The notes under the pieces are model-generated. The model worked only from the letters and a program-made list of their open reading frames with translations, was not told where the DNA came from and did no database searches. From Candidatus Zhuqueibacterota bacterium (GTDB lineage Bacteria > Zhuqueibacterota > QNDG01 > JABMRT01), in assembly GCA_013202295.1 (NCBI GenBank), contig JABMRT010000236.1, positions 1-42,319 on the forward strand: DNA of 42,319 nt, read 5' to 3'. The position numbers were made by a program, and so were the translations under genes. Below are positions 2,808 to 40,189 of this stretch, in pieces. How positions within the stretch are numbered: the stretch's first letter is position 1; the number at the start of each line of letters is the position of its first letter.

Positions 2808-2902
2808 AGTAAATTATTGAATAGTTAATACAAGAGATTTAAAAAGCTTAAAAACAGTATACACATCATTTTAATGTGATTTGAAGCTGGGTGAGGGATA
2901 GT

Positions 2903-4135
2903 ATGAAGAAGATTATAAATTTTCTTTTAATTACATTAGTCTGCATGTGTACAAATTTATTCGCCTGGGAATCGCCGAATATCGGTGATTTGCAGGTCTT
3001 TCCCGAAGACAACCCCTGGAACTGGGATATCAGTACCTATGACGTACACCCCAATTCAGATAATTTCATAGCCAACAGCGGAGCAGGATATCACTTGCAC
3101 CCTGATTTTGGCATGGTCTGGGCGGGTGCGCCGAATGGTATTCCCTACATTACAGTGAATGATGGTGAGCCTCTGATCCCGATATATTATACTGCATTTG
3201 GAGAAGAGAGCGATCCGGGGCCGTTTCCGATTCCTCTTGACGCGGTTATCGAAGGTGGTTCAGATGGGGAGGGCGACCGCCATGTGATTGCAGTGGATCT
3301 GGACAATGCGATGCTGTATGAATTGTACCGAGCGTTTCCCGGTGAAATCCTGTGGGAGGCGCAATCAGGCGCGCAGTTTGATTTGACGAGTAACGCGATC
3401 CGCCCCGAGGGATGGACCTCCGCGGATGCGGCTGGATTGCCGATCTTTCCGGGGCTTGTTCGATATGAAGAGGTGTACATCGATCAGGAAATTGATCATG
3501 CGCTCCGGTTTACGGTTGAGCACACGCAGCGGGCATACATCTGGCCTGCGCGGCATTATGCCAGTCAGTCCGATAATCCGAATCTGCCGCCCATGGGATT
3601 GCGGTTTCGCCTGAAAGCCGACTTTGATATTACCCCATTTTCAGAGCCGGTGCAGGTGATCCTGACTGCCTTGAAGAAGTATGGCATGTTTGTCGCGGAC
3701 AATGGTAGCAATATGTATATCAGCGGCGCACCTGACGAGCGCTGGGATGATGAGGTGCTTTCAGAATTAGGGGCGATTGACGGATCCAACTTTGAGGCTA
3801 TTCTCACTGTGGATTCAAATGGAGATCCCATTTATCCGCCAGAAAACGCTGTAAACATCCAGGATTCCCAAACAATCGATTTCAGAATCGCCAATTATCC
3901 CAATCCTTTTAACGCGTCCACAGTAATTAAATACTGGATTCCAGAAGCAGGCGATGTTCAGTTGTACGTTTATAATTTAGCGGGGCAGGAGATTGCATCC
4001 TTGTATGATGGATATCAGCAGGCTGGCGATCATGAGTTCACATGGATTCCAACTGGTCTCACAAGTGGTCTATATATATATGTACTTCAAACTGGTAACT
4101 TTGCAGAGACGGGAAAGCTTGTTTATCAAAAATAA
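2903..4135 (+). CDS. Secreted protein with type IX-like C-terminal sorting domain
   Basis: The protein has 410 residues. It starts with a Sec signal peptide (MKKIINFLLITL.., likely cut after FAW or nearby) and ends with an 80-residue sorting domain. That domain begins NYPNPFNASTVIKYWIP and closes TGKLVYQK. The middle, about residues 30-300, is one globular domain with PIPLDAVIEGGSDGEGDRH, PGLVRYEEV, HALRFTVEHTQRAYIWPARH and ALKKYGMFVADNGS. This resembles a conserved secreted family of unknown function that I recall from actinobacteria and others. An in-frame GTG at 2891 is possible, but ATG 2903, with GTGAGGGAT in front and a proper signal peptide, is the better start. Expected place: cell surface or medium. 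The exact role is unknown. Confidence 0.85.
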   Translation: MKKIINFLLITLVCMCTNLFAWESPNIGDLQVFPEDNPWNWDISTYDVHPNSDNFIANSGAGYHLHPDFGMVWAGAPNGIPYITVNDGEPLIPIYYTAFGEESDPGPFPIPLDAVIEGGSDGEGDRHVIAVDLDNAMLYELYRAFPGEILWEAQSGAQFDLTSNAIRPEGWTSADAAGLPIFPGLVRYEEVYIDQEIDHALRFTVEHTQRAYIWPARHYASQSDNPNLPPMGLRFRLKADFDITPFSEPVQVILTALKKYGMFVADNGSNMYISGAPDERWDDEVLSELGAIDGSNFEAILTVDSNGDPIYPPENAVNIQDSQTIDFRIANYPNPFNASTVIKYWIPEAGDVQLYVYNLAGQEIASLYDGYQQAGDHEFTWIPTGLTSGLYIYVLQTGNFAETGKLVYQK

Positions 4136-9181: not shown

Positions 9182-10530
9182 ATGAATTATAAAGAGGTCA
9201 TTGAACATCCCGAAAAATATGATTTCAACATACAAGCACTTGGCGATTGTTCTATTCCGAATCCTTTCCGAGGCCGTCGATTTATTGGTGATTTTGAAAG
9301 GGTCTCTTTTGCGGTAAAGCTTCACGAACTTGAACCGATATTTGAGTCAGGGAAGGATCTGCCTTCTTTTGAAAGGGCGGGTCCTCGCAAGAACATTTTT
9401 CATGATCCTCAGAAAACGCGAGCCGCCATAATTACCTGTGGTGGACTTTGTCCCGGGTTGAATGATGTTATTAAGAATATTGTAAATGTGCTATGGCAGG
9501 GATATGGCGTCCAAGATATTCTCGGATTGCGTTATGGATACCGTGGACTATCAGCCAAGCATACATTGCCGCCCTTGTTGCTCAATCCGAACAATGTGGA
9601 TACAATTCATGAACATGGGGGAACGATACTCGGTTCCTCCCGCGGCAATCAGGATATTGGCGAAATGGTGGAGACACTGATTAAAAAGAAGATCAACCTC
9701 CTTTTTACAATAGGAGGGGATGGAACTCTGCAGGGCGCAGGAGCGATTGCAGAGGAAATTTCAAAACGGAATTTGCCGATCAGCATCATCGGTGTGCCAA
9801 AAACAATTGATAATGATTTAAGCTTTACGGAAAAAACGTTCGGTTTCGAAACCGCAGTTTACGCATCGCCGATATTATTACAGCTGCCAACAATGAGGCC
9901 AAGGGTGCGTTCAACGGAATCGGTCTGGTTAAACTTATGGGACGCGATTCGGGATTTATCGCAAGCTATGCATCCATCGCAAATTCTGTGGTCAACTTTT
10001 GTCTTGTTCCAGAAGTGCCGTTGATCCTGCATGGAGAAAACGGTTTGCTTCGGGCTCTGGAAAGGCGATTTGATCAGAGAAAGGATCATGCTGTCATCGT
10101 TGTTGCAGAGGGCGCCGGTCAGGACCTTTTTCAGAAAAGTCCGGAGATATGTGAAAAATCAGGGGATCATATAAATAATGATATTGGCCTTCTGTTGAAG
10201 ACAGAAATTAACAACCATTTTAAAAAATGTGGAAAAGAAGTAAGCATAAAATACTTCGATCCCAGCTATTATATCCGTAGTGTTCCTGCCGAAGGCACTG
10301 ATGCTATTTTCTGTCATATGCTGGCTGAGCATGCGGTTCATGCAGGTATGGCTGGCAAAACAAATATGGTTGTGGGATTCTGGAGCAATACGTATACTTA
10401 TATTCCCATCCCATTAGCAACTCTGGCACGCCGAAAAGTGAATCTGAATGGCGATTTATGGAATGCTGTTCTGGGGCTGACACAGCAGGAGAAATATTTT
10501 AAGACGGGAAGCAGCGATACATTAGAATAA
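9182..10530 (+). CDS. 6-phosphofructokinase, reading frame interrupted by one base
   Basis: Glycolytic enzyme that phosphorylates fructose 6-phosphate. The gene is read in two frames. The 5' part ends its homology at FGFETAV near 9858, and the 3' part resumes at once as RIADIITAANNEAKGAFNG in the minus-one frame. Adding one T to the TTT at 9858-9860 gives a seamless protein of about 449-450 residues, the normal length of the long PFK clade seen in spirochetes, plants and trypanosomes. Motifs: TCGGLCPGLNDVI, TIGGDGTLQGA, PKTIDND, KLMGRDSGFIA and VAEGAGQ. The combination of GGDGT (not GGDD) and PKTIDND suggests ATP rather than pyrophosphate as donor. A sequencing error is more likely than gene death. 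It stands alone with weak signals upstream. Confidence 0.85.
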
Positions 10531-12037: not shown

Positions 12038-13621
12038 ATGATAGAGAGAAGAGAATTCTTAAAAATTGCGGGAGCTGCAACGGGTGGGATTATTCTCAAT
12101 CCATTGAATGCTTCGGAATATCGTTCAAAAAGAGCCGCGGATTATTTTGCAATCCATCCTTTTATTGAACAAAATCCCAATGCAGTTTTTATCATGAGAA
12201 CCGATGTGGATGTAAAGACAAATTCCGAGGCAGTTAAACAGGCAGGTCAACTGTTCGGGCAATCTGTATTCCAACTGACGGATGACGAAACCACAGGTGT
12301 GCCATTGAGTCATTTGTTCCCCATTAAACCAAATTTGACCTCATGGCAGTGGGACGCACCGCCGAATGTAGATTTTGAACAAGTGATGGGCATTGTGACC
12401 GATGTAAATTTTGTAGAAGGTGTCATCGAAAGCATGAAAGCGCTGGGTATCAATGCCGAGCAATTCTATATTCGTGATGCGAATGGTTCCGAAAATATTG
12501 AAAAAGCGGGGTACGGTGCGATGAGAGATCGTACCGGTGTCGATATCCAATTGGGTGCTGGAAATCCACAACTGCAATGGGTGGATGTTCCTGAGGGTGT
12601 ATGGTTTAATCGTATCCCCTATTTATGGCCCATGAATGCGCCGAATAGCTGGCTGCTGAATATCGCAAAATTTAAAGCCCATGGCATGGGATTGACTCTC
12701 TGCGCCAAGAATCTTCAGGGAAGCATCGCCTCACCGTATGTAAGCCATTGTTCAGCATTTGGTGCATCAATGGGCATTGATTCTGCCCATATACAACCCA
12801 ATGCATTTAATGTGATTGCGGATAATTATAATCGTCATAGAGATGCAGGTATTCCACGATGGGATGTAAGCGGATTGGATTTCACTGGTGGAAAAGGCAT
12901 GGAGACATGGGTCACACGTTGCCTGGATAATAATTCTATTTTAAAACCGGGATTAAATATAATTGAAGGCATTTACGGGCGGGATGGAGATGGCTTTTAT
13001 CACGGTCCGCATGGTGGTGTCGCCCAGGATTTTATGACCAATATAATCATCTTCGGTAAAAATGCTTTTTATGTGGATATCATCGGAAAATGGCTTGGCG
13101 GACATGAGCCCGGAAATTTCGGACTTTTTCATAACGCAAAAGAACGCGACTTTATCAACACATTTAATCCTGAAGAAATTCCTTTATATGAATGGAATGA
13201 AAGTGGAGAAGCGACTCTTTCTGATATAACAAATTTTGAACGTACTGGTCTCCGAACCAAATATCTAACAAAGCCAGGTGAAGATCAATATCATCTATGC
13301 AATGAACCGTATGAGTATGAAACATCGCTTGTTGATGATCATTCAACAAGCATACCGGAAAGCTTTGTTCTACGGCAGAACTATCCGAATCCATTTAATC
13401 CCTCGACATCCATTGAGTTCATTCTGCCAGAGAATGGAAAAACGCGATTAGAAATTTTAAACAGCCGCGGTGAAATTGTAGATATTATTGCGGATGGATT
13501 TCATCGAAAAGGAACTCACCTGGCTGTTTGGAGAAACCATAATTTGCCTTCGGGAACTTACTTCTATCGATTAAGATTTAATTCATACAATGAAGTCAAG
13601 AAAATGGTTCTTATAAAATAG
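12038..13621 (+). CDS. DUF362 protein with Tat-type leader and type IX-like sorting domain
   Basis: 527 residues in three parts. A twin-arginine-type leader MIERREFLKIAGAATGG is followed by a long DUF362-like domain (about 45-360) with LFPIKPNLTSWQWD, FYIRDANGS, NIAKFKAHGMGLTLCAKNLQG and DGFYHGPHGG. About residues 440-527 form a sorting domain that starts NYPNPFNPSTSIEFILP and ends EVKKMVLIK. DUF362 proteins are suspected redox or metal-related enzymes, but no activity is proven. A Tat leader implies folding, perhaps with a cofactor, before export. Joining it to an outer-membrane sorting tail is unusual. The next gene (DUF4412) is 37 bases away and may be in the same transcript. Confidence 0.85.
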   Translation: MIERREFLKIAGAATGGIILNPLNASEYRSKRAADYFAIHPFIEQNPNAVFIMRTDVDVKTNSEAVKQAGQLFGQSVFQLTDDETTGVPLSHLFPIKPNLTSWQWDAPPNVDFEQVMGIVTDVNFVEGVIESMKALGINAEQFYIRDANGSENIEKAGYGAMRDRTGVDIQLGAGNPQLQWVDVPEGVWFNRIPYLWPMNAPNSWLLNIAKFKAHGMGLTLCAKNLQGSIASPYVSHCSAFGASMGIDSAHIQPNAFNVIADNYNRHRDAGIPRWDVSGLDFTGGKGMETWVTRCLDNNSILKPGLNIIEGIYGRDGDGFYHGPHGGVAQDFMTNIIIFGKNAFYVDIIGKWLGGHEPGNFGLFHNAKERDFINTFNPEEIPLYEWNESGEATLSDITNFERTGLRTKYLTKPGEDQYHLCNEPYEYETSLVDDHSTSIPESFVLRQNYPNPFNPSTSIEFILPENGKTRLEILNSRGEIVDIIADGFHRKGTHLAVWRNHNLPSGTYFYRLRFNSYNEVKKMVLIK

Positions 13622-22621: not shown

Positions 22622-23572
22622 TTATTTCATCAGGATCATGCGTTGAGTTTGTGATAATTTTCCTGCTTGCAGATGACTCAGATACACACCGCTTGGCAGT
22701 TCATCTCCTCTGTCGTTTTTTCCATCCCAGTCCAGAGAGTATGTATCCGGGGTTAAGTTTTCATTCATAAGCTTTCGGACGAGTCGTCCATTGATATCGT
22801 AAACGGATAGGATTGCCCGGGACAATACCGGAAGTGTGAAGCGTAAGGTAGTTGTCGGATTGAATGGATTTGGATAATTGGAATACAGGGTAAAGCCCTC
22901 CAGTGATTCATTTTCCTGTGCTACAGCAGAGCTCCCTTCTACAATCAGACTTATATTGTCGATTGCTATATCATAGAATGTTGAATAATCAGCCCATACT
23001 CCCGCTTTTATTCCCAAATAGATCGTGACTTCTTCCCCGGGATTCCCGGGGGGAGTATAATAGGGCGTTTGGTAGCCTACACAGCCGTCGTCCTGGAATG
23101 TGCCGTCTATGCCGGCAGCACAATAGTCCCAGGTGCTGAATGATATATATTTATCTGTATTGGCTTCATTCGGTGGTTTATAATCAACCCCATCAACTGG
23201 TTCTTCATCGCTGATGTAAATTTCACACCACAGATCGATCAGGTCACCTTCCGTTAAATCTTTAAAAGCACCACTCAATTCATAGGTTGTACCCGCTTCA
23301 AGAGTCAGTGCCTGGAAAACAAAGATGTTGGTGTAGGTGTCTTCCCCGACAAGTTCCAGGTAGGGCCCCTCACCTGCTGCAGGGCCGGAACCGTCATCGA
23401 CCGCAAAATCTGCTATCGATGGCGTGTTGCCACCCATATCGTAGACAGTCCAGCCTTCGTCGCTGTCAAACGTGCCGTTGACAATCATTTCCTGGGCATT
23501 GAGAAAGACGCATAACAACATCGTCAGACAACCCACCAGATAAATCCGCGTGAACCATTTTTGATTCTTCAT
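22622..23572 (-). CDS. Secreted carbohydrate-binding-like protein with sorting domain
   Basis: 316 residues. The signal peptide (KNQKWFTRIYLVGCLTMLLC..) likely ends after LNA. Residues about 28-215 form a beta-sandwich that starts MIVNGTFDSDEGWTVYD, the usual opening of CBM4/9-like (CenC-like) modules, with LEAGTTYELSGAFKD and FYDIAIDNISLIVEG as typical strands. Residues about 228-316 are a FlgD-like type IX sorting domain (NYPNPFNPTTTLRFTLP, then DWDGKNDRGDELPSGVY, ending QRMILMK). The ribosome site AGGAGG lies before the ATG at 23572. The gene is 38 bases downstream of the larger secreted gene on the same strand, probably one operon. It could bind glycans at the cell surface; ligand unknown. 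Confidence 0.85.
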   Translation of the reverse strand: MKNQKWFTRIYLVGCLTMLLCVFLNAQEMIVNGTFDSDEGWTVYDMGGNTPSIADFAVDDGSGPAAGEGPYLELVGEDTYTNIFVFQALTLEAGTTYELSGAFKDLTEGDLIDLWCEIYISDEEPVDGVDYKPPNEANTDKYISFSTWDYCAAGIDGTFQDDGCVGYQTPYYTPPGNPGEEVTIYLGIKAGVWADYSTFYDIAIDNISLIVEGSSAVAQENESLEGFTLYSNYPNPFNPTTTLRFTLPVLSRAILSVYDINGRLVRKLMNENLTPDTYSLDWDGKNDRGDELPSGVYLSHLQAGKLSQTQRMILMK

Positions 23573-23610: not shown

Positions 23611-26025
23611 TTACTCTACCATTAATATTTTTCTTGAATCGGTGTAGTCATTGGCCTGGATGTGGCATATATAGAGCCCACCTGCCAACCCGCTGGAAGT
23701 TTCATTGAATGGTGCCCATTTTAGAGTATGCGTGCCTGGATTTTTCATGCCTTCTAATAAGGTGCTCACGCATTGTCCGGAGATATTGTAGATTTTGAGC
23801 GTGACAAATGCGGGTTCATGCAGTATATAGGATAAAGTTGTGTTTTCAAAAAATGGATTGGGATAATTTTGCTGCAGCATGATGAATCCGGTCTGATCGT
23901 TAGAAATTAGTGTGTCCGAAACAGAAATCGAAACAGGCGACTCAAAAGTCTGGTTAATCCAAATCAGCATGGCACTGTCAGATTTTGAGGTTTTGAATTG
24001 TTTATCCATTGTTAGGGTGCTGCCGTCTATAGATATATGGGCAGGACGGTTTCCCCAATCTTCAATCAGAAATACAGGATTTTTAAGCACGCGGTCTTTA
24101 CCATCATCTGAGTCGGGTATCAACAAATCAAATTTACAGGAACTCTCTCCGGGAGTCATCTTCAATCGATATTCCATCATATCATGAGCAAATCCTTCAT
24201 AAATACAGGTAGAGTCTAAAAGTATTATTTGGCCAGGATGGAGCCAGTCCCGGATCCGATTGAGCACTGTTTCGCTCTCACCCGGTTGATTAAGCCCGAT
24301 CAGAGATATCCACTCACGATATTTTCGGCCTCTTGAATCCGTTTTGGTGTATTGCGACCAATTCTGTCCTTCGTAGACACCCGCACCGATCAGGCTGGTA
24401 TGAGAGACCTGTGATTTCCAGGTCCCGTGTGTTTTGCAGGGCTCCTGGTAGGGTTCCAGACCGACAGGCCAGTGGCACATTTGATAGGTTGTGTTGTGCC
24501 ATGATAGATCAAAAACAATGGGATAATGAGCATAAGTTTCTGGAACTTCAGGATCATGGGAAAAGACCGAATAGGCATCCGGAGCATCAGTAAAATGGGC
24601 AGTAGTAATAATCTGGTCCCAGCTATTGGTCAAAGATATAAATTGACGGTTGGGATAAAAATCCACATTCAGGCCATCCAGATTTGAAACAGATAATGCG
24701 GGTGTATTAAGGTGCTCAGAGGGATTACTTCCGGATCCAGCGATTACAATCAGCTCAGTCAGTTCATGCCAACTATTGAAATCTGAATCAAGTTTGGGGA
24801 AATATTGAATTTTCCGAAGGATTGTTCCATCCGGATAAATTGTATACCATTCGTCGACTTCGGGAAAATCCAATCCCGCGGTCCCCCCAGGAATCTGATA
24901 ATCAGGATTGCATAGCACATAATGCCAGTGTACAACCTTTCGGACCTCATTGTCTTCAACAAGATCCACACTGGACCAGCGCAGCAGCCGGTCCGACATG
25001 GGTTCGTGGCAACCAATGATTCCCCCGCCCCAGGTTTCGACAAATTCATAGGAGTAGAGCAGTTGATTGTTGAGATGCCAGACGGGAATGAACTGTGTCG
25101 CTTCCCAAAACACGAATTTGATATCCTGCCCATGAAAGGCGAAGGATTCGTCAAAGGAAATAACCAGGGCATTACCAAACTGACCCGACCAGTTGAAGTC
25201 CCGCCAGGTTGCCTGAAAACCGGTTTCTCTGTCGTCAATGTCCTGAACAGGTTTTTGAATGACGAAGAAATCGTCGAAAAAGATCTGAACAGGTAGGGAT
25301 TGATCAGGATGAACGAGGAGTGCCACATAAAATTGCTGATCTGAATGTCCCCAATCACGAGAGGGTGCCAGTTCCATCCAACCCTCAACCCATTGGCCCC
25401 GGATTTTCTGTCTGACCGCATAATAATAATGGAAGAATCCGGAGAGGTCATCCCTGAAAATTCGAATCTTCTGGTTGGTTGTGTTAAAGGGAACAGAAAA
25501 ATTAAAATTCAGGTGATGATTGTATCTGTCAGGGGACAAGCTGTTTGTGTTGTCTAAAACATGGTCCTGTCCGTTTTGGCGATCTTCGACCCGGACATAT
25601 TTTTCACCGGCAGAAGTTAGTTCAATGATAATGGATGTATAATTATCAAGATCGGGGTTCCCATTTTTCTCCTGGATCAGGGCCAGTCCAATTGCATTAT
25701 CCGGTTCAAAGGATACTTCTGCATAAAAGTGTCTGGAAACAGGTGTGGAATGATAGAAAGCAAAACTATTTGAGGGATCACTTAATTCTATTACAAGATG
25801 TCCATTTTCAAGAAACGGCTGCACCGGATCGCCGGTCCCGTTGAGCCAGACACCCTGCCAGTCATCGCTGAGAACGTCAAAGGAATCCTCAATAAGGATC
25901 TCCCCATTCTCGGAATTTTCTGGTTCTACAGCCTGTGCCCAATGATTTATAAACAACAGAATCAACAGAACACAGATTCTGGCTGCAGATTTCAGTTCTG
26001 GTATTTTTTTAAATGAAGAATCCAT
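23611..26025 (-). CDS. Large secreted protein with sorting domain, unknown function
   Basis: 804 residues. The N-terminus is basic and then hydrophobic (ICVLLILLFINHWAQA), a Sec signal cut near residue 32. Residues about 42-260 look like a LamG/concanavalin-type sandwich (ILIEDSFDVLSDDWQGVW, LENGHLVIELSD, FYAEVSFEPDNAIGLALIQ). The centre, about 270-690, contains tryptophan- and histidine-rich pieces (SYEFVETWGGGIIGCHEP, VVHWHYVLCNPDY, CHWPVGLEPYQEPCKTHGTW) that I cannot assign to a family. The C-terminus (from about 715) is a sorting domain starting NYPNPFFENTTLSYIL and ending SRKILMVE. No good ribosome site is visible before ATG 26025. It may be a polysaccharide-acting or binding surface protein, from context only. 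Confidence 0.8.
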   Translation of the reverse strand: MDSSFKKIPELKSAARICVLLILLFINHWAQAVEPENSENGEILIEDSFDVLSDDWQGVWLNGTGDPVQPFLENGHLVIELSDPSNSFAFYHSTPVSRHFYAEVSFEPDNAIGLALIQEKNGNPDLDNYTSIIIELTSAGEKYVRVEDRQNGQDHVLDNTNSLSPDRYNHHLNFNFSVPFNTTNQKIRIFRDDLSGFFHYYYAVRQKIRGQWVEGWMELAPSRDWGHSDQQFYVALLVHPDQSLPVQIFFDDFFVIQKPVQDIDDRETGFQATWRDFNWSGQFGNALVISFDESFAFHGQDIKFVFWEATQFIPVWHLNNQLLYSYEFVETWGGGIIGCHEPMSDRLLRWSSVDLVEDNEVRKVVHWHYVLCNPDYQIPGGTAGLDFPEVDEWYTIYPDGTILRKIQYFPKLDSDFNSWHELTELIVIAGSGSNPSEHLNTPALSVSNLDGLNVDFYPNRQFISLTNSWDQIITTAHFTDAPDAYSVFSHDPEVPETYAHYPIVFDLSWHNTTYQMCHWPVGLEPYQEPCKTHGTWKSQVSHTSLIGAGVYEGQNWSQYTKTDSRGRKYREWISLIGLNQPGESETVLNRIRDWLHPGQIILLDSTCIYEGFAHDMMEYRLKMTPGESSCKFDLLIPDSDDGKDRVLKNPVFLIEDWGNRPAHISIDGSTLTMDKQFKTSKSDSAMLIWINQTFESPVSISVSDTLISNDQTGFIMLQQNYPNPFFENTTLSYILHEPAFVTLKIYNISGQCVSTLLEGMKNPGTHTLKWAPFNETSSGLAGGLYICHIQANDYTDSRKILMVE

Positions 26026-33579: not shown

Positions 33580-33602
33580 ATTGTTTCATAAGGAGAGTGA
33601 TT

Positions 33603-35291
33603 ATGTCTCGCCCCATGTTTGAGGAGTTCAGGCCCGAGGGTCCGATCAAGGCGCCCAGAGGCACGAAACTGTCCTGTAAAAATTGGGACACGGAAGCAGC
33701 GCTCCGCATGCTCATGAATAATCTCGATCCTCAGGTCGCGTTACAGCCTGAAGATCTTGTCGTTTATGGCGGAAGTGGTCGCGCAGCTCGAAACTGGAAA
33801 GCTTATACACAAATTGTGGACATCCTTAAAAAACTGGATGACCATCACACTCTATGCGTGCAATCCGGCAAACCGGTGTATATCGCGCCCACCCACCCGG
33901 ATGCGCCGCGCGTGATTCTGGCTAATTCCAACATCGTGCCCAAGTGGGCAACTCAGGAGCAGTTCGATATTTACGATGAAATGGGCCTGATGATGTATGG
34001 CCAGATGACGGCCGGCAGCTGGATTTACATCGCAACACAAGGTATCATCCAAGGCACGTATGAGACGTTTGCAGCAGTGGGCAGGCAGGAGTTTAACTCC
34101 GATACGCTTAAGGGCCGTTTTATCCTCACGGCAGGAATGGGTGGCATGTCGGGTGCACAACCTTTGGCGGGCACGATGAATGAAGCGGTCATCCTAACCA
34201 TTGAAGCGCGGCCGGAGCGTATCGCACGAAAAGTGAGAGAGGGCTACTGCGATCGCATGACTGCAGATGTGGAAGATGCGATTCGCTGGGTACGGGACGC
34301 GCAGGCACATAAGCGGTCACTCTCCGTCGGCCTGGTCGGGAATGCCGGAGAGGTGTATCCCTGGTTGGTGCAGCACGGGGAAGTGCCGGATATTGTCACG
34401 GATCAAACCTCAGCGCATAATCTACTCGATTATATGCCCATCGGCAATTTGCAGGAGATTGATACACTCCGCGAGAAAGATCCCAAAGCCTATAAAAAGC
34501 GGGCATTGGAAACCATTGCGAAACATACGGAAGCCATCCTCGACATGCAGGAAAGTGGTGCGGTGGCATTTGATTATGGAAACAATTTGAGGGCTCAGGC
34601 CGAGTTGGCGGGGCTTTCCATTCGCGACGAGAATGGATCGTTTAAATATCCGGGATTCGTACCCGCCTATGTGCGACCCCTGTTCTGCGAAGGACGAGGA
34701 CCCTTCCGGTGGGCCGCTTTATCTGGCGAAACCTCTGACATTGATCGCCTTGACACACTTGTCCTAGATATGTTCAAGGATAATGAATCTCTCTGCCGCT
34801 GGATTCATCTGGCGCGTGAAAAGATTCCGCATCTGGGATTACCCGCGCGCGTGTGCTGGCTGGGCTATGGTGAACGCGCGGAATTTGCGCTGGCCATGAA
34901 CGATCTTATCCGAAAAGGTGAGATCAAGGCGCCCATAGTGATCGGTCGTGACCATCTCGATTGCGGGTCCGTGGCGTCTCCAAACCGCGAAACGGAAGGG
35001 ATGCTCGACGGCAGTGATGCGATTGCGGACTGGCCTCTTCTCAATTTTGCACTCAACGCGGTGAACGGTGCCAGTTGGGTGAGCTTTCATCATGGGGGCG
35101 GCGTGGGAATCGGATATTCGCTGCATGCGGGCATGGTCATTGTCGCGGATGGCACCAAGGAACGTGACGCCCGGCTCGAGCGGGTGATGACGGTTGATCC
35201 CGGCCTGGGCATTGCCCGCCACGCGGATGCCGGGTATGAGAAGGCGATTGAAATGGCGAATCAGTACAATATTTCACTGAATAAATTGTAG
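33603..35291 (+). CDS. hutU: Urocanate hydratase
   Basis: Cytosolic NAD-dependent enzyme that hydrates urocanate to 4-imidazolone-5-propionate, second step of histidine breakdown. 562 residues, normal length. The urocanase signature HLGLPARVCW contains the active cysteine (about residue 418). The NAD-binding stretch ILTAGMGGMSGAQPLAG, together with WIYIATQGIIQGTYETF, GRDHLDCGSVASPNRETE and WVSFHHGGGVGIGYSLHAG, is textbook. The frame begins with a GTG at 33597, but ATG 33603 gives MSRPMFEEF with AAGGAG in front and is preferred. hutI follows 20 bases later and hutH overlaps hutI, so hutU-hutI-hutH is one operon. No hut repressor gene is beside it. Confidence 0.97.
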   Translation: MSRPMFEEFRPEGPIKAPRGTKLSCKNWDTEAALRMLMNNLDPQVALQPEDLVVYGGSGRAARNWKAYTQIVDILKKLDDHHTLCVQSGKPVYIAPTHPDAPRVILANSNIVPKWATQEQFDIYDEMGLMMYGQMTAGSWIYIATQGIIQGTYETFAAVGRQEFNSDTLKGRFILTAGMGGMSGAQPLAGTMNEAVILTIEARPERIARKVREGYCDRMTADVEDAIRWVRDAQAHKRSLSVGLVGNAGEVYPWLVQHGEVPDIVTDQTSAHNLLDYMPIGNLQEIDTLREKDPKAYKKRALETIAKHTEAILDMQESGAVAFDYGNNLRAQAELAGLSIRDENGSFKYPGFVPAYVRPLFCEGRGPFRWAALSGETSDIDRLDTLVLDMFKDNESLCRWIHLAREKIPHLGLPARVCWLGYGERAEFALAMNDLIRKGEIKAPIVIGRDHLDCGSVASPNRETEGMLDGSDAIADWPLLNFALNAVNGASWVSFHHGGGVGIGYSLHAGMVIVADGTKERDARLERVMTVDPGLGIARHADAGYEKAIEMANQYNISLNKL

Positions 35292-35311
35292 AATGCAATC
35301 AGGATTATAAT

Positions 35312-36526
35312 ATGTCTGAACTACTCTTACAAAACATCAAACAAGTTTATCATCCAGATTGGCTAAATCATGAAGGGCCGGTGTCGATCTATATAAATGA
35401 CGGCATCATTAAGAAAATCGCGGAGGGTGAATCCACCCCAGAAACGGAGGTGTTGGATTGCTCTGGGCTGATCGCTTTGCCCGGCTTCGTGGATTCGCAC
35501 ACGCATCTGCTGTTTGCCGGATCACGGGAGGATGAGCTCTACCTCCGTGCAAATAATGTCTCCTATCTGGAAATTCTCAAACAGGGTGGCGGGATTTACC
35601 GAACGGTAGAGGCTGTCCGCGCTGCTTCTGAGGAAGAATTGTTACAGAACGGATTGCGTTTTCTGGATGTCGCACTTCGCCAAGGCATTACCACGATTGA
35701 GATTAAATCGGGGTATGGACTCGATTTTGAAACCGAAGCAAAGATGCTTCGCGTCATCCGAAAGATGAATGAGATGCATCCCATTGACATTGTGCTGACC
35801 TTTCTCGTGCATTCAGTGCCGAAGAATTGGAAGCGTGAAGCTTATATCCAAACCGTGATGGAGGAGATGATTCCCGCGTTTCGTGAGTACGCGAACTGGT
35901 TTGATATCTTCCTTGAGGAGGGCGTGTTCAGCCAAGATGAAACGAGACTACTCATCCAAAGGGCTATTGATGCTGGGTATAAGATCGGTTTGCACGCGAA
36001 TCAGGTGTATGATCTTGGCGGTGTGCGTCTAGCGAATGAGATGGGTGTACGGCATGTGAGTCATCTTGAAGTCCTGTGCCAGGAAGATGCGGTTCGGATT
36101 ATTCAGAATCCTGATTTATATTCGGTGTTTCTCCCCGGAGCCGAGTCATTCGTGTTCTCTGAAAGAATCGGGCAGATCAATCAACTCCTCGACATTCCCG
36201 AACGGATTGTTCTGTCCACGGATTTCAATCCGGGATCATCGCCGGTGCTCTCGCCAACCATGATCATGGCAATGGCTGTGCTGCGATATAGGCTGTCTAA
36301 TCCCAAATTGCTGATTAACGCGTTTACGATCAATCCAGCTGAGATGCTTTTCTTGCCGGACAGAGGAAAGATCGAACAGGGGAAAGTGGCGGATTTGATC
36401 CTGCTTGATCTGGATCGATTCGAGCAAGTCCCTTACTTCGGTACAATTAACATGATCCGGCATGTAATAAAAAGGGGCAAGGTGTTTGACGTACAGCCTG
36501 AGATATCCAAATTGGAGTTAACCTGA
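35312..36526 (+). CDS. hutI: Imidazolonepropionase
   Basis: Metal-dependent amidohydrolase that opens 4-imidazolone-5-propionate to N-formimino-glutamate, third step of histidine breakdown. 404 residues. The metal-binding pair is His63 and His65 in GFVDSHTHLLFAGSREDE. Further markers are GGGIYRTVEAVR, TTIEIKSGYGLDFETE, GLHANQVYDLGG, VRHVSHLEVL and STDFNPGSSPV, with the late NPAEMLFL..G.IEQGKVADLILLD shell of the amidohydrolase fold. The start has CAGGA nearby. Its stop shares one base with the hutH start (TGATG), implying translational coupling. Confidence 0.96.
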   Translation: MSELLLQNIKQVYHPDWLNHEGPVSIYINDGIIKKIAEGESTPETEVLDCSGLIALPGFVDSHTHLLFAGSREDELYLRANNVSYLEILKQGGGIYRTVEAVRAASEEELLQNGLRFLDVALRQGITTIEIKSGYGLDFETEAKMLRVIRKMNEMHPIDIVLTFLVHSVPKNWKREAYIQTVMEEMIPAFREYANWFDIFLEEGVFSQDETRLLIQRAIDAGYKIGLHANQVYDLGGVRLANEMGVRHVSHLEVLCQEDAVRIIQNPDLYSVFLPGAESFVFSERIGQINQLLDIPERIVLSTDFNPGSSPVLSPTMIMAMAVLRYRLSNPKLLINAFTINPAEMLFLPDRGKIEQGKVADLILLDLDRFEQVPYFGTINMIRHVIKRGKVFDVQPEISKLELT

Positions 36527-38253
36527 TGCAAACCGAACATTACAGTCCGAAGACCATTGCGAAAAAAGGGGTCGTGATTGACGGCGAAACCCTGACCATG
36601 GATGAGATGATCGCTGTGGCACGTTACGGGGCCGAAGTTACGATCAACCCGTCTATCCGAAAGAAAATTCAGAGAAGCCGGGATTATGTGGAACAGGCGG
36701 TTGAAAAGGTGGTGGATTCAAACTTGACCGAAGAAGAGAAGCGGCCGTGGCTGATCTACGGTGTGACCACAGGATTCGGAAGCCACAAGGATTTTATCAT
36801 CCAGAGCCGAGAGGAAGCTAAAGTTCTCCAGCGGAACATTATCCTGAGTCATGCATGCGGGGTGGGGCAGACGCTTGACTCGGAGACGGTTCGGGCAATG
36901 ATGTTACTCAGGCTGAATTCTTTTGCGAAGGGATTTTCTGGGGTGCGTTACTGTCTGCTTGAATTGCTGGTCCTGATGTTGAATCACCATATCCATCCCA
37001 TCGTACCGGAAAAGGGATCAGTGGGATCGAGCGGGGATCTTTGTCCCCTGGCGCATATGGCGCTGGTGCTGATTGGGCGGGGTGAGGGACGGATCGATCA
37101 ATGCGATCCCATAAAAGGAGATTGGGAGACCCTTCGATGCATTCCGGGTGAAGAGGCCATCGCAGTAATCCACAGTGAGATGCAGGATCAGAATATTCCC
37201 TATCCATTCACTCTCAGTTACAAAGAAGGTCTGGCCCTGACAAACGGGGCGAACGTGATGACCTCTATCGGCGTTATGGCATATAGCGATTCATTTAATC
37301 TGCTGCGAAATTCAGACATTGCCGGGGCCATGACCCTTGAAGCGATTGGCGGGCGCACGCGGGCTTTTGATCCGAAAGTGCACGCGGTTCGACCCCACAA
37401 AGGACAGGTGGCCTGCGCTGAGAATATCCGAAGATTGACACAAGACAGCACACTTCTCGATACCAGCCGGGATGTGCATGACTCCTATTCTGTACGTTGC
37501 ATGCCTCAGGTACATGGCGCTTCTGATGATGCGATGGATTATGTGAAACGGGTGGTTGAAATTGAAGTCAATTCTGCCACGGACAATCCACTCTTTTTCG
37601 AACCGGACCCACCTCCACAAGACGGTGCGGATGATTTGCTTGCCTATTCCGCCGGCAATTATCACGGCCAGCCCGTGGCCATTGCCATGGATTTTCTCGG
37701 TCTTGCGATTGCGGAGCTGGCGAGCATTTCAGAGCGGCGTATTCAGAAACTACTCGATAAGCATCACAATCAAGGACTCAATCCGGATCTGTGCCTTGAT
37801 CCCCGGCTTCACTCCGGCTTGATGATCGCTCACTACACGGCTGCAGCGCTGGTTTCCGAAAACAAAGTGTACTGCCATCCTGCAAGCTGTGATTCTATTC
37901 CAACTTCCTCCAATATTGAGGATCATGTCAGCATGGGTACGTTCGCAGCGCGCAAGGCACGGATGATTCTTGAAAATGCAAAGAACGTGATCGCAATTGA
38001 AATGCTGTGCGCGGCCCAGGCGCTCGATTTCCGCGTGGGCATGTTGAAGCAGGCGGATGTGAACTCTGTCACAGGAAAACCGGGGAAGGGTACAATGACT
38101 GCTTTTCGAATTATTCGGGAGGCAGGCGTGAATCCTTTAAAAGAAGATCGGGAGATTTACCCGGATATTGCGAAAGTTCGGACTTTGATTGAATATCGTC
38201 ACATTATTGATGTGGTGGAAGCGGAGGTTGGAGAATTATATAGATATAAATAG
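36526..38253 (+). CDS. hutH: Histidine ammonia-lyase
   Basis: Removes ammonia from histidine to give urocanate, first step of the pathway. 575 residues, somewhat longer than the usual 500-510. The prosthetic MIO group normally forms from Ala-Ser-Gly; here the tripeptide is Ser168-Ser169-Gly170 in KGSVGSSGDLCPLAH. Other landmarks: YGVTTGFGSHKD, LQRNIILSHACGVGQ (the Ser-His pair typical of histidine-specific lyases), EGLALTNGANVMTS, QDSYSVRC-type HDSYSVRCMPQVHGA and NSATDNPLFF. The extra residues come from internal loops and the C-terminal part. It overlaps hutI by one base. The convergent radical SAM gene ends only 12 bases away, with no clear terminator between. Confidence 0.94.
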   Translation: MQTEHYSPKTIAKKGVVIDGETLTMDEMIAVARYGAEVTINPSIRKKIQRSRDYVEQAVEKVVDSNLTEEEKRPWLIYGVTTGFGSHKDFIIQSREEAKVLQRNIILSHACGVGQTLDSETVRAMMLLRLNSFAKGFSGVRYCLLELLVLMLNHHIHPIVPEKGSVGSSGDLCPLAHMALVLIGRGEGRIDQCDPIKGDWETLRCIPGEEAIAVIHSEMQDQNIPYPFTLSYKEGLALTNGANVMTSIGVMAYSDSFNLLRNSDIAGAMTLEAIGGRTRAFDPKVHAVRPHKGQVACAENIRRLTQDSTLLDTSRDVHDSYSVRCMPQVHGASDDAMDYVKRVVEIEVNSATDNPLFFEPDPPPQDGADDLLAYSAGNYHGQPVAIAMDFLGLAIAELASISERRIQKLLDKHHNQGLNPDLCLDPRLHSGLMIAHYTAAALVSENKVYCHPASCDSIPTSSNIEDHVSMGTFAARKARMILENAKNVIAIEMLCAAQALDFRVGMLKQADVNSVTGKPGKGTMTAFRIIREAGVNPLKEDREIYPDIAKVRTLIEYRHIIDVVEAEVGELYRYK

Positions 38254-38265
38254 GTTATAGTATCC

Positions 38266-39843
38266 CTAATGCCAGCAGAATGGATCTCTTTCCTTTTCAA
38301 AATCTTTTCCTAAACCGTCCGTGATCGCGAGACATCCTCCACAAACGGCTCTGAGATCGCAGTCGTCACATGCGGCTGATCCCCGGCGATATCGCTTCGA
38401 TTCCTTTGAATGATAAATTTCATTCAGAGACTGTGTGAGTAGATTCCCGATCGGCGAGGGGAATTTTCGGCAGGCGTGGGTTTCGCCATCCGGGAGGACG
38501 GCGAAAAAGCTGAAGGCCGCGCCGCAGCCGAAGCCCGTACATCCGCCGAAAAACGGCTCGTCTTTTTCCTCTCGAATAAGATTAATCAAGTTGTCCTTAA
38601 ATCCGATCACACGGTTTGTTTTGGCGGCTTCCACATACTCCCGCAGAAAAACCTGATATGCGTCCGGTTCCGGCAACAAAAGATCTGCGCCTTCACCCAC
38701 CGGACTGAGCCGATTGAATGTGAAGCTATTTGCATGGCCGCGTAACCGTTCCACAAGCGGAAGGATTTGATCGATATTATCCTTTGTCAGTGTCAGCATA
38801 ATCGCAGAAGAAACCTTGAGATCTCGAAGCAGACCGAGGAACTCCACCACGCTGGTGAAATGGCCTTTGCCCCGCATGAAGTCATTATGCTCAGGCAATC
38901 CCTCCAAACTGGTTTGATAGTAGGTGGGCATTTGAATGGCGAGCAGTTTTTCGATTTTCTCTCGCGAAACCGGGTTGCCTAAAATGGACGTAGAAAATCC
39001 CCGATCTGCAGCCGCCTGATAAAGTTCGAAAAATTTGGGATAGAGAAACGGATTGCCCCCTGTAAAGCAGACATGCCCCCGAACGCGATTGTCCTTGGAA
39101 AATCCGGACAGATCATCTAATATTTTGAGACCCTGATCCAGCGTGAGAGGCGAACGGTTGCTTCGATCATAACAATGCCGGCAGTTCAAATCGCATGCGT
39201 GTGTAATGTGCCATTGCAGGGTGAAATAGCGAGATGCGAGATGAGAATCCTTGATTTTTTCTGTGGATTTTAAAATGGGGTTATCTCGCCGGATTTTTGA
39301 GGAGAGTGGAATGAGAATTCCTTTGTTCTCGGCCTGATGAATGGCGCGGATCAGATTTCCGACAGGCACATTTTGTTCCCTTGCCGCAGATTCCAGATTC
39401 ACTTCTTCTGAGACAAGCTTGAGAGCCAGCAGATCCTGATCCGTTGCTGCGGCAGTTCTGATCTTCATGGATTCGGGATGCTTCCAAACCAGAATATATT
39501 CTTCTCTTTTTTCCGGGATTTTATAAGGCGGATTTACGGTTTCGACCAGTTTCCAATCCGAATGAATCAATTCGAGTGCAGGATTGAGTTCAGTCGATTC
39601 TCTATCTTCGTCTAGATCCAAAATGCTTTGAGAGATTTCTTCCCTCGTTAACTCAAGTCGTGCAAGCGTGGGCAAATAATTTGGGAAGGGATAATTCTTA
39701 TTTTTCTCCTCCAATATATCTGGGAAGGATTGGATTGAAGGGGTATCGAGCAGTACTATAAGCCTATTCCAGGCATTCTCACCCAGAAGATGAAAACAGG
39801 ATGGATAGACTTCTTCCAGATAATTTGTATTCAGATTGGGCAT
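38266..39843 (-). CDS. sbtM: Radical SAM/SPASM peptide maturase, SbtM-like
   Basis: 525 residues. Residues 1-200 form a helical N-terminal region (EVYPSCFHLLGENAWNRL, FPNYLPTLARLELTREEI) of the kind I recall from the SbtM thio(seleno)oxazole maturases. A small winged-helix-like stretch near 135-180 may recognise the leader. The radical SAM cluster is C217-x3-C221-x2-C224 in CDLNCRHCYDRS, followed by FTGGNPFLYP and TSLEG. The C-terminal SPASM/twitch part has cysteines at 435, 440, 458, 492, 495, 501, 504 and 523, enough for two auxiliary iron-sulfur clusters. It lies directly downstream of the cysteine-repeat peptide gene on the same strand. No good ribosome site precedes ATG 39843, so low expression is likely. 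The family name is from memory and was not searched. Confidence 0.8.
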   Translation of the reverse strand: MPNLNTNYLEEVYPSCFHLLGENAWNRLIVLLDTPSIQSFPDILEEKNKNYPFPNYLPTLARLELTREEISQSILDLDEDRESTELNPALELIHSDWKLVETVNPPYKIPEKREEYILVWKHPESMKIRTAAATDQDLLALKLVSEEVNLESAAREQNVPVGNLIRAIHQAENKGILIPLSSKIRRDNPILKSTEKIKDSHLASRYFTLQWHITHACDLNCRHCYDRSNRSPLTLDQGLKILDDLSGFSKDNRVRGHVCFTGGNPFLYPKFFELYQAAADRGFSTSILGNPVSREKIEKLLAIQMPTYYQTSLEGLPEHNDFMRGKGHFTSVVEFLGLLRDLKVSSAIMLTLTKDNIDQILPLVERLRGHANSFTFNRLSPVGEGADLLLPEPDAYQVFLREYVEAAKTNRVIGFKDNLINLIREEKDEPFFGGCTGFGCGAAFSFFAVLPDGETHACRKFPSPIGNLLTQSLNEIYHSKESKRYRRGSAACDDCDLRAVCGGCLAITDGLGKDFEKERDPFCWH

Positions 39844-39872
39844 TATTTATCCACAATGCATTTAAAAAGCAA

Positions 39873-39901
39873 ACGGCCCGCAAGCAGTTGCCAGGGGCCG
39901 T
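39873..39901 (-). terminator. Intrinsic terminator or attenuator between precursor and maturase
   Basis: On the minus strand ACGGCCC pairs with GGGCCGT, and inside it GCAA pairs with TTGC, giving about 11 pairs with a 3-base bulge and a CTGC loop. TTTGCTTTTT follows at once. It lies 27 bases after the peptide stop and 29 bases before the maturase start. Partial read-through would give much peptide and little enzyme, a common arrangement in RiPP clusters. Confidence 0.85.
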
Positions 39902-39928
39902 CATAAATTCAACAAAGCTATAGTTGAG

Positions 39929-40189
39929 TTACTTGCTGCAAGATCCGCCGCCACATGATCCTTTCGCTGTGGTGTCGGTTGCTGCTTCCTGGCCGCATGA
40001 GCCCTGGGCTGTTGTATCAGCAGCTCCCTGGCCGCATGAGGTTTTCATTTCTTCAACTGCTGCTTCGTCTGTGGCTTTTTCGGTATCGGTTTTGCTCTGG
40101 CTGCATCCACTTTGCAGTAGACTTACACTGCTGATGAGCCCGGCCAGTCCGATCCCAGCCAATGTCTTTTTCATTTGTTCCCGTGTCAT
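39929..40189 (-). CDS. sbtA: Cysteine-repeat RiPP precursor peptide, SbtA-like
   Basis: 86 residues from ATG 40189, chosen because GGAGG sits six bases upstream; the frame is open to 40273. Residues 1-29 (MTREQMKKTLAGIGLAGLISS.., ending LLQSGC) look like a signal or lipoprotein leader with Cys29 as a possible lipid site. An acidic linker (31-49) follows. The tail then carries cysteines at 52, 65, 79 and 84 in TSCGQ, GSCGQ, GSCGG and GSCSK, separated by AADTTAQG/AATDTTAKG-type spacers of 13-14 residues. The adjacent radical SAM/SPASM protein is the likely modifier. In related SbtA peptides some cysteines are selenocysteine (from memory); here all are ordinary TGC/TGT codons. Product and activity are unknown. 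Confidence 0.78.
   Translation of the reverse strand: MTREQMKKTLAGIGLAGLISSVSLLQSGCSQSKTDTEKATDEAAVEEMKTSCGQGAADTTAQGSCGQEAATDTTAKGSCGGGSCSK

Follow-up and report, generated by a model that had tools for sequence, protein, structure and literature searches.

A radical SAM/SPASM maturase with a PME-like module and its signal-bearing Cys-Gly precursor: SbtA/SbtM as a probable anaerobic route to copper-buffering peptides

A gene pair encoding the precursor peptide SbtA and the radical SAM/SPASM maturase SbtM was found on contig JABMRT010000236.1 of a Candidatus Zhuqueibacterota bacterium, the 42,319 nucleotides of which are called the window here. The locus as such falls within a known curated family. 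New against the literature searched, which did not cover the 2021 SbtM paper, are the fusion of a PME-like module to the maturase, the reading of the precursor leader as an export signal, and the link to copper. By analogy with the thiooxazole peptides made by MNIO enzymes, SbtA/SbtM is probably an anaerobic, radical-SAM-based way of making a copper-buffering peptide that is bound to the envelope. The probability that modified, exported SbtA acts as a copper-binding buffer, and thus as the radical-SAM counterpart of the bufferins and oxazolins ('captophorins') that MNIO enzymes make, was estimated at about 0.6.

Both genes lie on the minus strand, sbtA (39929..40189, 86 aa) being upstream of sbtM (38266..39843, 525 aa) with a gap of 85 bp, exactly where the initial annotation had placed the two reading frames. 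SbtM scored 706.8 bits (E 1.7e-212) against NCBIfam TIGR04082, whose equivalog cut-off is 350, over positions 1-515 of 516, which confirmed the family assignment made earlier; it was the single copy above this cut-off in the whole genome. anSME, a match that would have spoken for another family, lay outside the 25 best families. The second-best family was ACGX (TIGR04340), another radical SAM/SPASM group, whose peptides by name carry Ala-Cys-Gly-X motifs. Its score of 160.9 bits on the catalytic half was far under its cut-off of 400 and more than 500 bits behind SbtM, and the ACGX model, of 341 positions, aligned from SbtM residue 206 on, hence without the PME-like module. The radical SAM domain (38746..39207, minus strand; PF04055, E 1.5e-15) contained the previously described C217-x3-C221-x2-C224 motif (39172-39195, minus strand), and the SPASM region (38275..38541, minus strand; PF13186, E 1.5e-8) contained the eight C-terminal cysteines, also described, at residues 435, 440, 458, 492, 495, 501, 504 and 523. 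All eleven cysteines were invariant across 13 homologues, and auxiliary Fe-S clusters would be expected in the SPASM region. In addition, the full-length model (mean pLDDT 83) matched the known radical SAM/SPASM peptide maturases CteB, SkfB and SuiB in Foldseek.

Histidine-degradation genes (plus strand) border the pair on one side and a gene for an RlmL-like methyltransferase on the other, so the pair was regarded as a stand-alone two-gene cassette. The GC content of sbtM was 47%, which is ordinary for the window and gave no sign of very recent transfer. A plasmid origin was rejected, as no plasmid match covered 80% of SbtM and the best had about 27% identity; the comparison of SbtM with viral contigs gave no match. 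Histidine-degradation genes were found near both contig ends, at 301-1953 and 33597-38253 (plus strand), the set consisting of a formiminotransferase/cyclodeaminase-like gene and hutU, hutI and hutH. Elsewhere in the window, two overlapping reading frames (280 and 197 aa) at 9182-10530 on the plus strand resemble a single phosphofructokinase-type gene interrupted by a frameshift, which points to an error in the assembly or to a broken gene, and protein tails of the YPNPFNP type, typical of FCB-group bacteria, were seen at 2891-4135, 12038-13621, 22622-23572 and 23611-26025.

The gap between sbtA and sbtM holds a terminator-like GC-rich hairpin with a T-rich run behind it (39864..39902, minus strand; fold z about -2.6). 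Comparable hairpins were present in most other linked sbtA-sbtM gaps, with z-scores down to -6.5; the exceptions were L035 and L038, where z was weak, and L036, which had no hairpin. The element is similar to a terminator, one that would keep the SbtA peptide more abundant than SbtM. Between or around the two genes, no known RNA element was found in Rfam up to E 1.

The peptide of the window scored 28.9 bits (E 6.9e-7) against TIGR04081, a 27-residue leader model with a cut-off of 30.5, and was filed as SbtA-like owing to the missing 1.6 bits. Several sbtM-adjacent SbtA homologues also scored under this cut-off, and adjacency, leader and core together make the assignment safe despite the sub-threshold score. 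The SbtA family named in the initial annotation was therefore retained, while the formal threshold was not reached. It is the one SbtA in the whole genome. The core (39935..40039, minus strand) carries the presumed modification sites C52, C65 and C79 (Cys-Gly) and C84 (Cys-Ser), in TSCGQ, GSCGQ, GSCGG and GSCSK, respectively; these are the four tail cysteines already reported, and a fifth, C29, which had been left out of that count, stands at the end of the leader. In an alignment of 12 precursors, C52 and G53 were invariant and C65 and C79 at least 90% conserved, and the cores were made up of repeats of the type (G/S)SCG(K/Q/G)GSCG. A selenocysteine reading was rejected for the window, where sbtA stops at TAA and has no in-frame TGA, so that no selenocysteine is encoded; none of the 12 precursors had a selenocysteine codon at Cys-like positions. 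An in-frame TGA occurs in some SbtA members and is not required for membership.

The leader has the layout of an export signal. Residues 1-28 of SbtA (40106..40189, minus strand) form a Sec-type signal peptide with a basic n-region and an uncharged hydrophobic stretch. The same layout, a basic N-terminus followed by such a stretch, was seen in 12/12 leaders of a set comprising ten peptides directly upstream of sbtM, one whose gene lies on a contig other than that of sbtM and one second copy, two of the 12 having been retrieved with the leader model, so that their leader similarity is partly by construction. Moreover, two cleavage types alternate at about one position: a lipobox-like [GAS]C in six of the precursors, including that of the window, and an AxA-type site in the other six. 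This exchange at a single position would be difficult to account for if the leader were not an export signal. In the window the lipobox-like sequence is QSGC, ending at C29 (codon 40103..40105, minus strand), which aligns with the Cys of five homologues that pass PROSITE PS00013. QSGC29 fails this pattern owing to the Q at -3, and among 16 lipobox-like signals sampled from about 0.48 Mb of the genome, SbtA alone had Q at this position. The lipidation of the window SbtA at C29 is therefore uncertain.

Homologous pairs were found in other genomes, most of them metagenome bins. SbtA was directly upstream of SbtM in 10 of the 13 SbtM loci read, which is not chance, and a Cys-repeat peptide thus does accompany most orthologues, so the refuting outcome named in the initial annotation, orthologues lacking such a peptide, did not arise. 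No SbtA was found in two SbtM genomes. One genome of the Omnitrophota phylum (L048/L050) had a second SbtA unlinked to sbtM, and a single SbtM maturase may serve several precursors there. In another genome of this phylum (L049), sbtM and the only SbtA found were on separate contigs, and this SbtA, like the one of L050, had a thioredoxin-reductase-like gene nearby. The distribution of SbtM is rare and patchy: it was present in 1/82 genomes of the phylum of the window, 1/392 sampled from the phylum of a planctomycete, 8/384 from that of an Omnitrophota bin, 1/388 from that of a Lentisphaerae bin and 2/44 from that of Candidatus Erginobacter, and one Omnitrophota order yielded no copies beyond the known one. 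A small tree of the catalytic half mixed the phyla and placed the window beside a Lentisphaerae sequence with modest support (0.78). Judged from these sequences, the mixing suggests horizontal spread or wide loss of SbtM.

The first 185 or so residues of SbtM, ahead of the radical SAM domain, form the PME-like module (residues 1-186; 39286..39843, minus strand), in which DUF2063-like helices are followed by an RRE-like fold. This assignment is based on a predicted model and on profile comparison. The full-length model matched PDB 3dee (NGO1945) in Foldseek with E 3.1e-7, and the model of residues 1-186 (pLDDT 89) had 3dee as its top match (E 2.8e-7, TM 0.66/0.62, 193 columns), followed by two TglI chains (8hi7, E 4.8e-4; 8hci, E 1.8e-3); beyond 3dee and TglI, nothing in the PDB was below E 0.19. 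3dee has been described as a DUF2063+RRE partner of MNIO enzymes, PME type 1; TglI is the partner of the MNIO TglH, and 8hi7 is likewise an MNIO partner protein (PMC12452194, PMC12668002). Independently, hhalign aligned nine SbtM N-termini with gathered DUF2063 proteins at E 1.1e-6, colinearly over about 176 columns, with a score of 51.8; the highest score among 60 column-shuffled controls was 23.7, and the reversed alignment scored 14.1. A second alignment gave E 9e-7. The DUF2063-like helical domain and the RRE fold after it, by which PME proteins are recognised, were thus found by both structure and profile comparison. Single-sequence matches were weak: the HvfC model matched 4/9 of the N-termini below its cut-off (best E 0.001), and PF09836 also stayed below cut-off. 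When the N-terminal profile was compared with the PDB by sequence alone, only chance matches to S100 proteins came up, and a DUF2063 profile search by sequence did not retrieve 3dee, so the link rests on the structure comparison and on the papers that name 3dee a PME1. TIGR04082 covers the same region (model positions 1-178); the module therefore belongs to the SbtM family as modelled. In two SbtM variants, L033 (6582-7889) and L036 (6581-7888), the start is late and the helical first part of the module seems to be missing. No PME-like module in SbtM was found reported in the literature searched.

Evidence on copper came from the relatives. The clearest case was L033, an Omnitrophota-phylum genome, in which genes for TolC-like, CusB-like and CusA/CzcA (TIGR00914, 1026 bits) proteins, SbtA, SbtM, DoxX and NDH2 are arranged consecutively on the same strand. 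The only NCBIfam match of this DoxX at the threshold used was HvfX (NF050144), a model named 'Cu-binding RiPP maturation protein', at 61.8 bits, under the curated cut-off of 80. CusA/CzcA-type transporters also move other metals. Bufferin clusters have doxX among their core genes (PMC12452194). In L050, the second SbtA is preceded by a thioredoxin-reductase-like gene and followed by genes for a Cu/Zn superoxide dismutase and a superoxide reductase. Some results count against the copper reading. A copper-type efflux operon was found at only one of about a dozen loci, and since those other than L033 and L050 have no obvious metal genes, the support from context is real but narrow. Furthermore, the neighbours in the window itself (hutH, the other histidine-degradation genes and the RlmL-like methyltransferase gene) are uninformative on metals, and a copper role could not be read from them.

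The chemistry of related enzymes was then considered. The products had been called poorly characterised in the initial annotation; this is less open than stated, since according to PMC11002830, which reports the work of Lewis 2021, Cys or Sec peptides lose four hydrogens to an SbtM assayed in vitro, and Cys is converted to a thiooxazole. MNIO/PME1 pairs install 5-thiooxazoles in the Cys-Gly motifs of Sec-signal precursors (PMC12668002, PMC12538549, PMC12452194), and precursors with a Sec signal go with PME type 1 (PMC12452194). These pairs yield thiooxazole ligands of Cu with a link to copper detoxification (PMC12668002), and copper binding is a property of the thiooxazole peptides studied to date (PMC12538549, PMC12668002). 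As radical SAM enzymes are typically O2-sensitive and MNIO enzymes use O2 (the latter from PMC12668002), SbtA/SbtM looks like an anaerobic version of the same process.

On these grounds the following order of events is proposed. In the cytoplasm, SbtM would hold the SbtA precursor through its N-terminal DUF2063+RRE module, and its radical SAM/SPASM domain would oxidise the Cys-Gly cysteines of the tail, C52, C65, C79 and perhaps C84, to thiooxazoles with the loss of four hydrogens each. Thiooxazole rings do not cross-link the chain, so the modified SbtA would still be exportable and could leave via Sec. The lipobox variants, probably including that of the window, would then be anchored as lipoproteins, and the AxA-type variants would be freed into the periplasm after cleavage by signal peptidase I. 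In the envelope or periplasm, the exported peptide would buffer copper.

It is conceivable, with the odds clearly against it, that the thiooxazole peptide made and exported in this way serves another purpose, namely protection from redox or oxidative stress, binding of another soft metal (Zn, Hg, Cd, Ag) or electron transfer in the envelope. This would suit the redox genes near SbtA or SbtM in some relatives (thioredoxin-reductase-like, superoxide reductase, Cu/Zn SOD, NDH2), the several metals covered by CusA/CzcA-family pumps and the lack of metal genes beside the window pair, but the DoxX of L033 resembles that of Cu-binding RiPP clusters, and copper is what the studied thiooxazole peptides bind. 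The initial annotation had suggested a natural product or a surface-bound modified peptide; a related reading is a classical secreted natural product, a signal or antimicrobial cut from its leader and released. RiPPs are often of this kind, and the signal-peptidase-I-type sites in half of the SbtA set would free the peptide; nevertheless, such a role is quite improbable, because neither a dedicated protease, nor an ABC exporter, nor an immunity gene stands beside the window pair, no gene for a protease, exporter or immunity recurs in the relatives, and the lipobox-like end in six precursors would keep the product on the membrane. Least probable of all is that SbtM forms thioether cross-links of the sactipeptide or ranthipeptide type on the Cys tail, as its structural likeness to the thioether-forming CteB, SkfB and SuiB might suggest, since its own family leads so widely, the assayed SbtM forms a thiooxazole (PMC11002830), and cross-linked loops would be likely to hinder Sec export of a signal-bearing precursor. 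Copper buffering by the exported, thiooxazole-containing SbtA was therefore kept as the preferred reading.

Compared with the thio(seleno)oxazole system of Lewis 2021, the pair has the same maturase family, an adjacent precursor, the same leader and a Cys-repeat tail; it differs in that the 12 precursors lack a selenocysteine codon and that the leader is read here as an export signal (lipobox or SPI). With the bufferins, oxazolins and fontiphorin (MNIO + PME1) it shares a Sec-signal precursor, repeated Cys-Gly, the DUF2063+RRE module, by analogy a thiooxazole product, and an HvfX-like DoxX in one relative. The Sec signal and repeated Cys-Gly core that mark captophorins are thus both found in SbtA. 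Unlike in that group, where the catalyst is an O2-using MNIO, catalysis here falls to a radical SAM/SPASM domain joined to the module, and the repeats are SCG(K/Q/G) instead of EGKCG. A PME protein is also expected to be co-encoded with an MNIO; no MNIO (PF05114) was found in the genome of the window, and in SbtM the module is fused to the radical SAM domain instead. The system was therefore not filed as a captophorin, although it may work like one. Like the DAG-RiPPs (lipoprotein RiPPs such as DybA and NedA), SbtA has a signal that ends in a lipobox-like Cys ahead of a presumably modified Cys core, and SPI-type and SPII-like forms occur inside one family. In contrast, the experimentally shown DAG-RiPPs are MNIO-modified (PMC12636315), SbtM is a radical SAM enzyme, and the window lipobox is non-canonical at -3.

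Taken together, the common recognition module, precursor architecture and product indicate that SbtA/SbtM shares the features of the MNIO/PME1 class with a radical SAM enzyme as catalyst. At odds somewhat short of even, we suggest that it forms an O2-independent branch of the copper-binding thiooxazole peptides, in which a single PME module and a single precursor type, with a Sec or lipoprotein signal and Cys-Gly repeats, work with either of two unrelated catalysts, an O2-using MNIO or a radical SAM enzyme, and that the product of the window is a radical-SAM-made, lipid-anchored RiPP, of which no report was found in the literature searched. PME1 proteins have been described as dedicated MNIO partners (PMC12668002). 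A PME-like module on a radical SAM enzyme, together with signal-bearing Cys-Gly precursors, links two RiPP families treated separately in that literature, predicts a function for the N-terminal domain of SbtM and suggests that catalysts have been swapped on a common recognition module. Lipoprotein RiPPs beyond the MNIO-modified ones have been predicted to exist (PMC12636315), and SbtA/SbtM offers radical-SAM candidates for them. Furthermore, the pair provides a concrete hypothesis for the role of the thio(seleno)oxazole RiPPs, which would be anaerobic, envelope-bound copper buffering.
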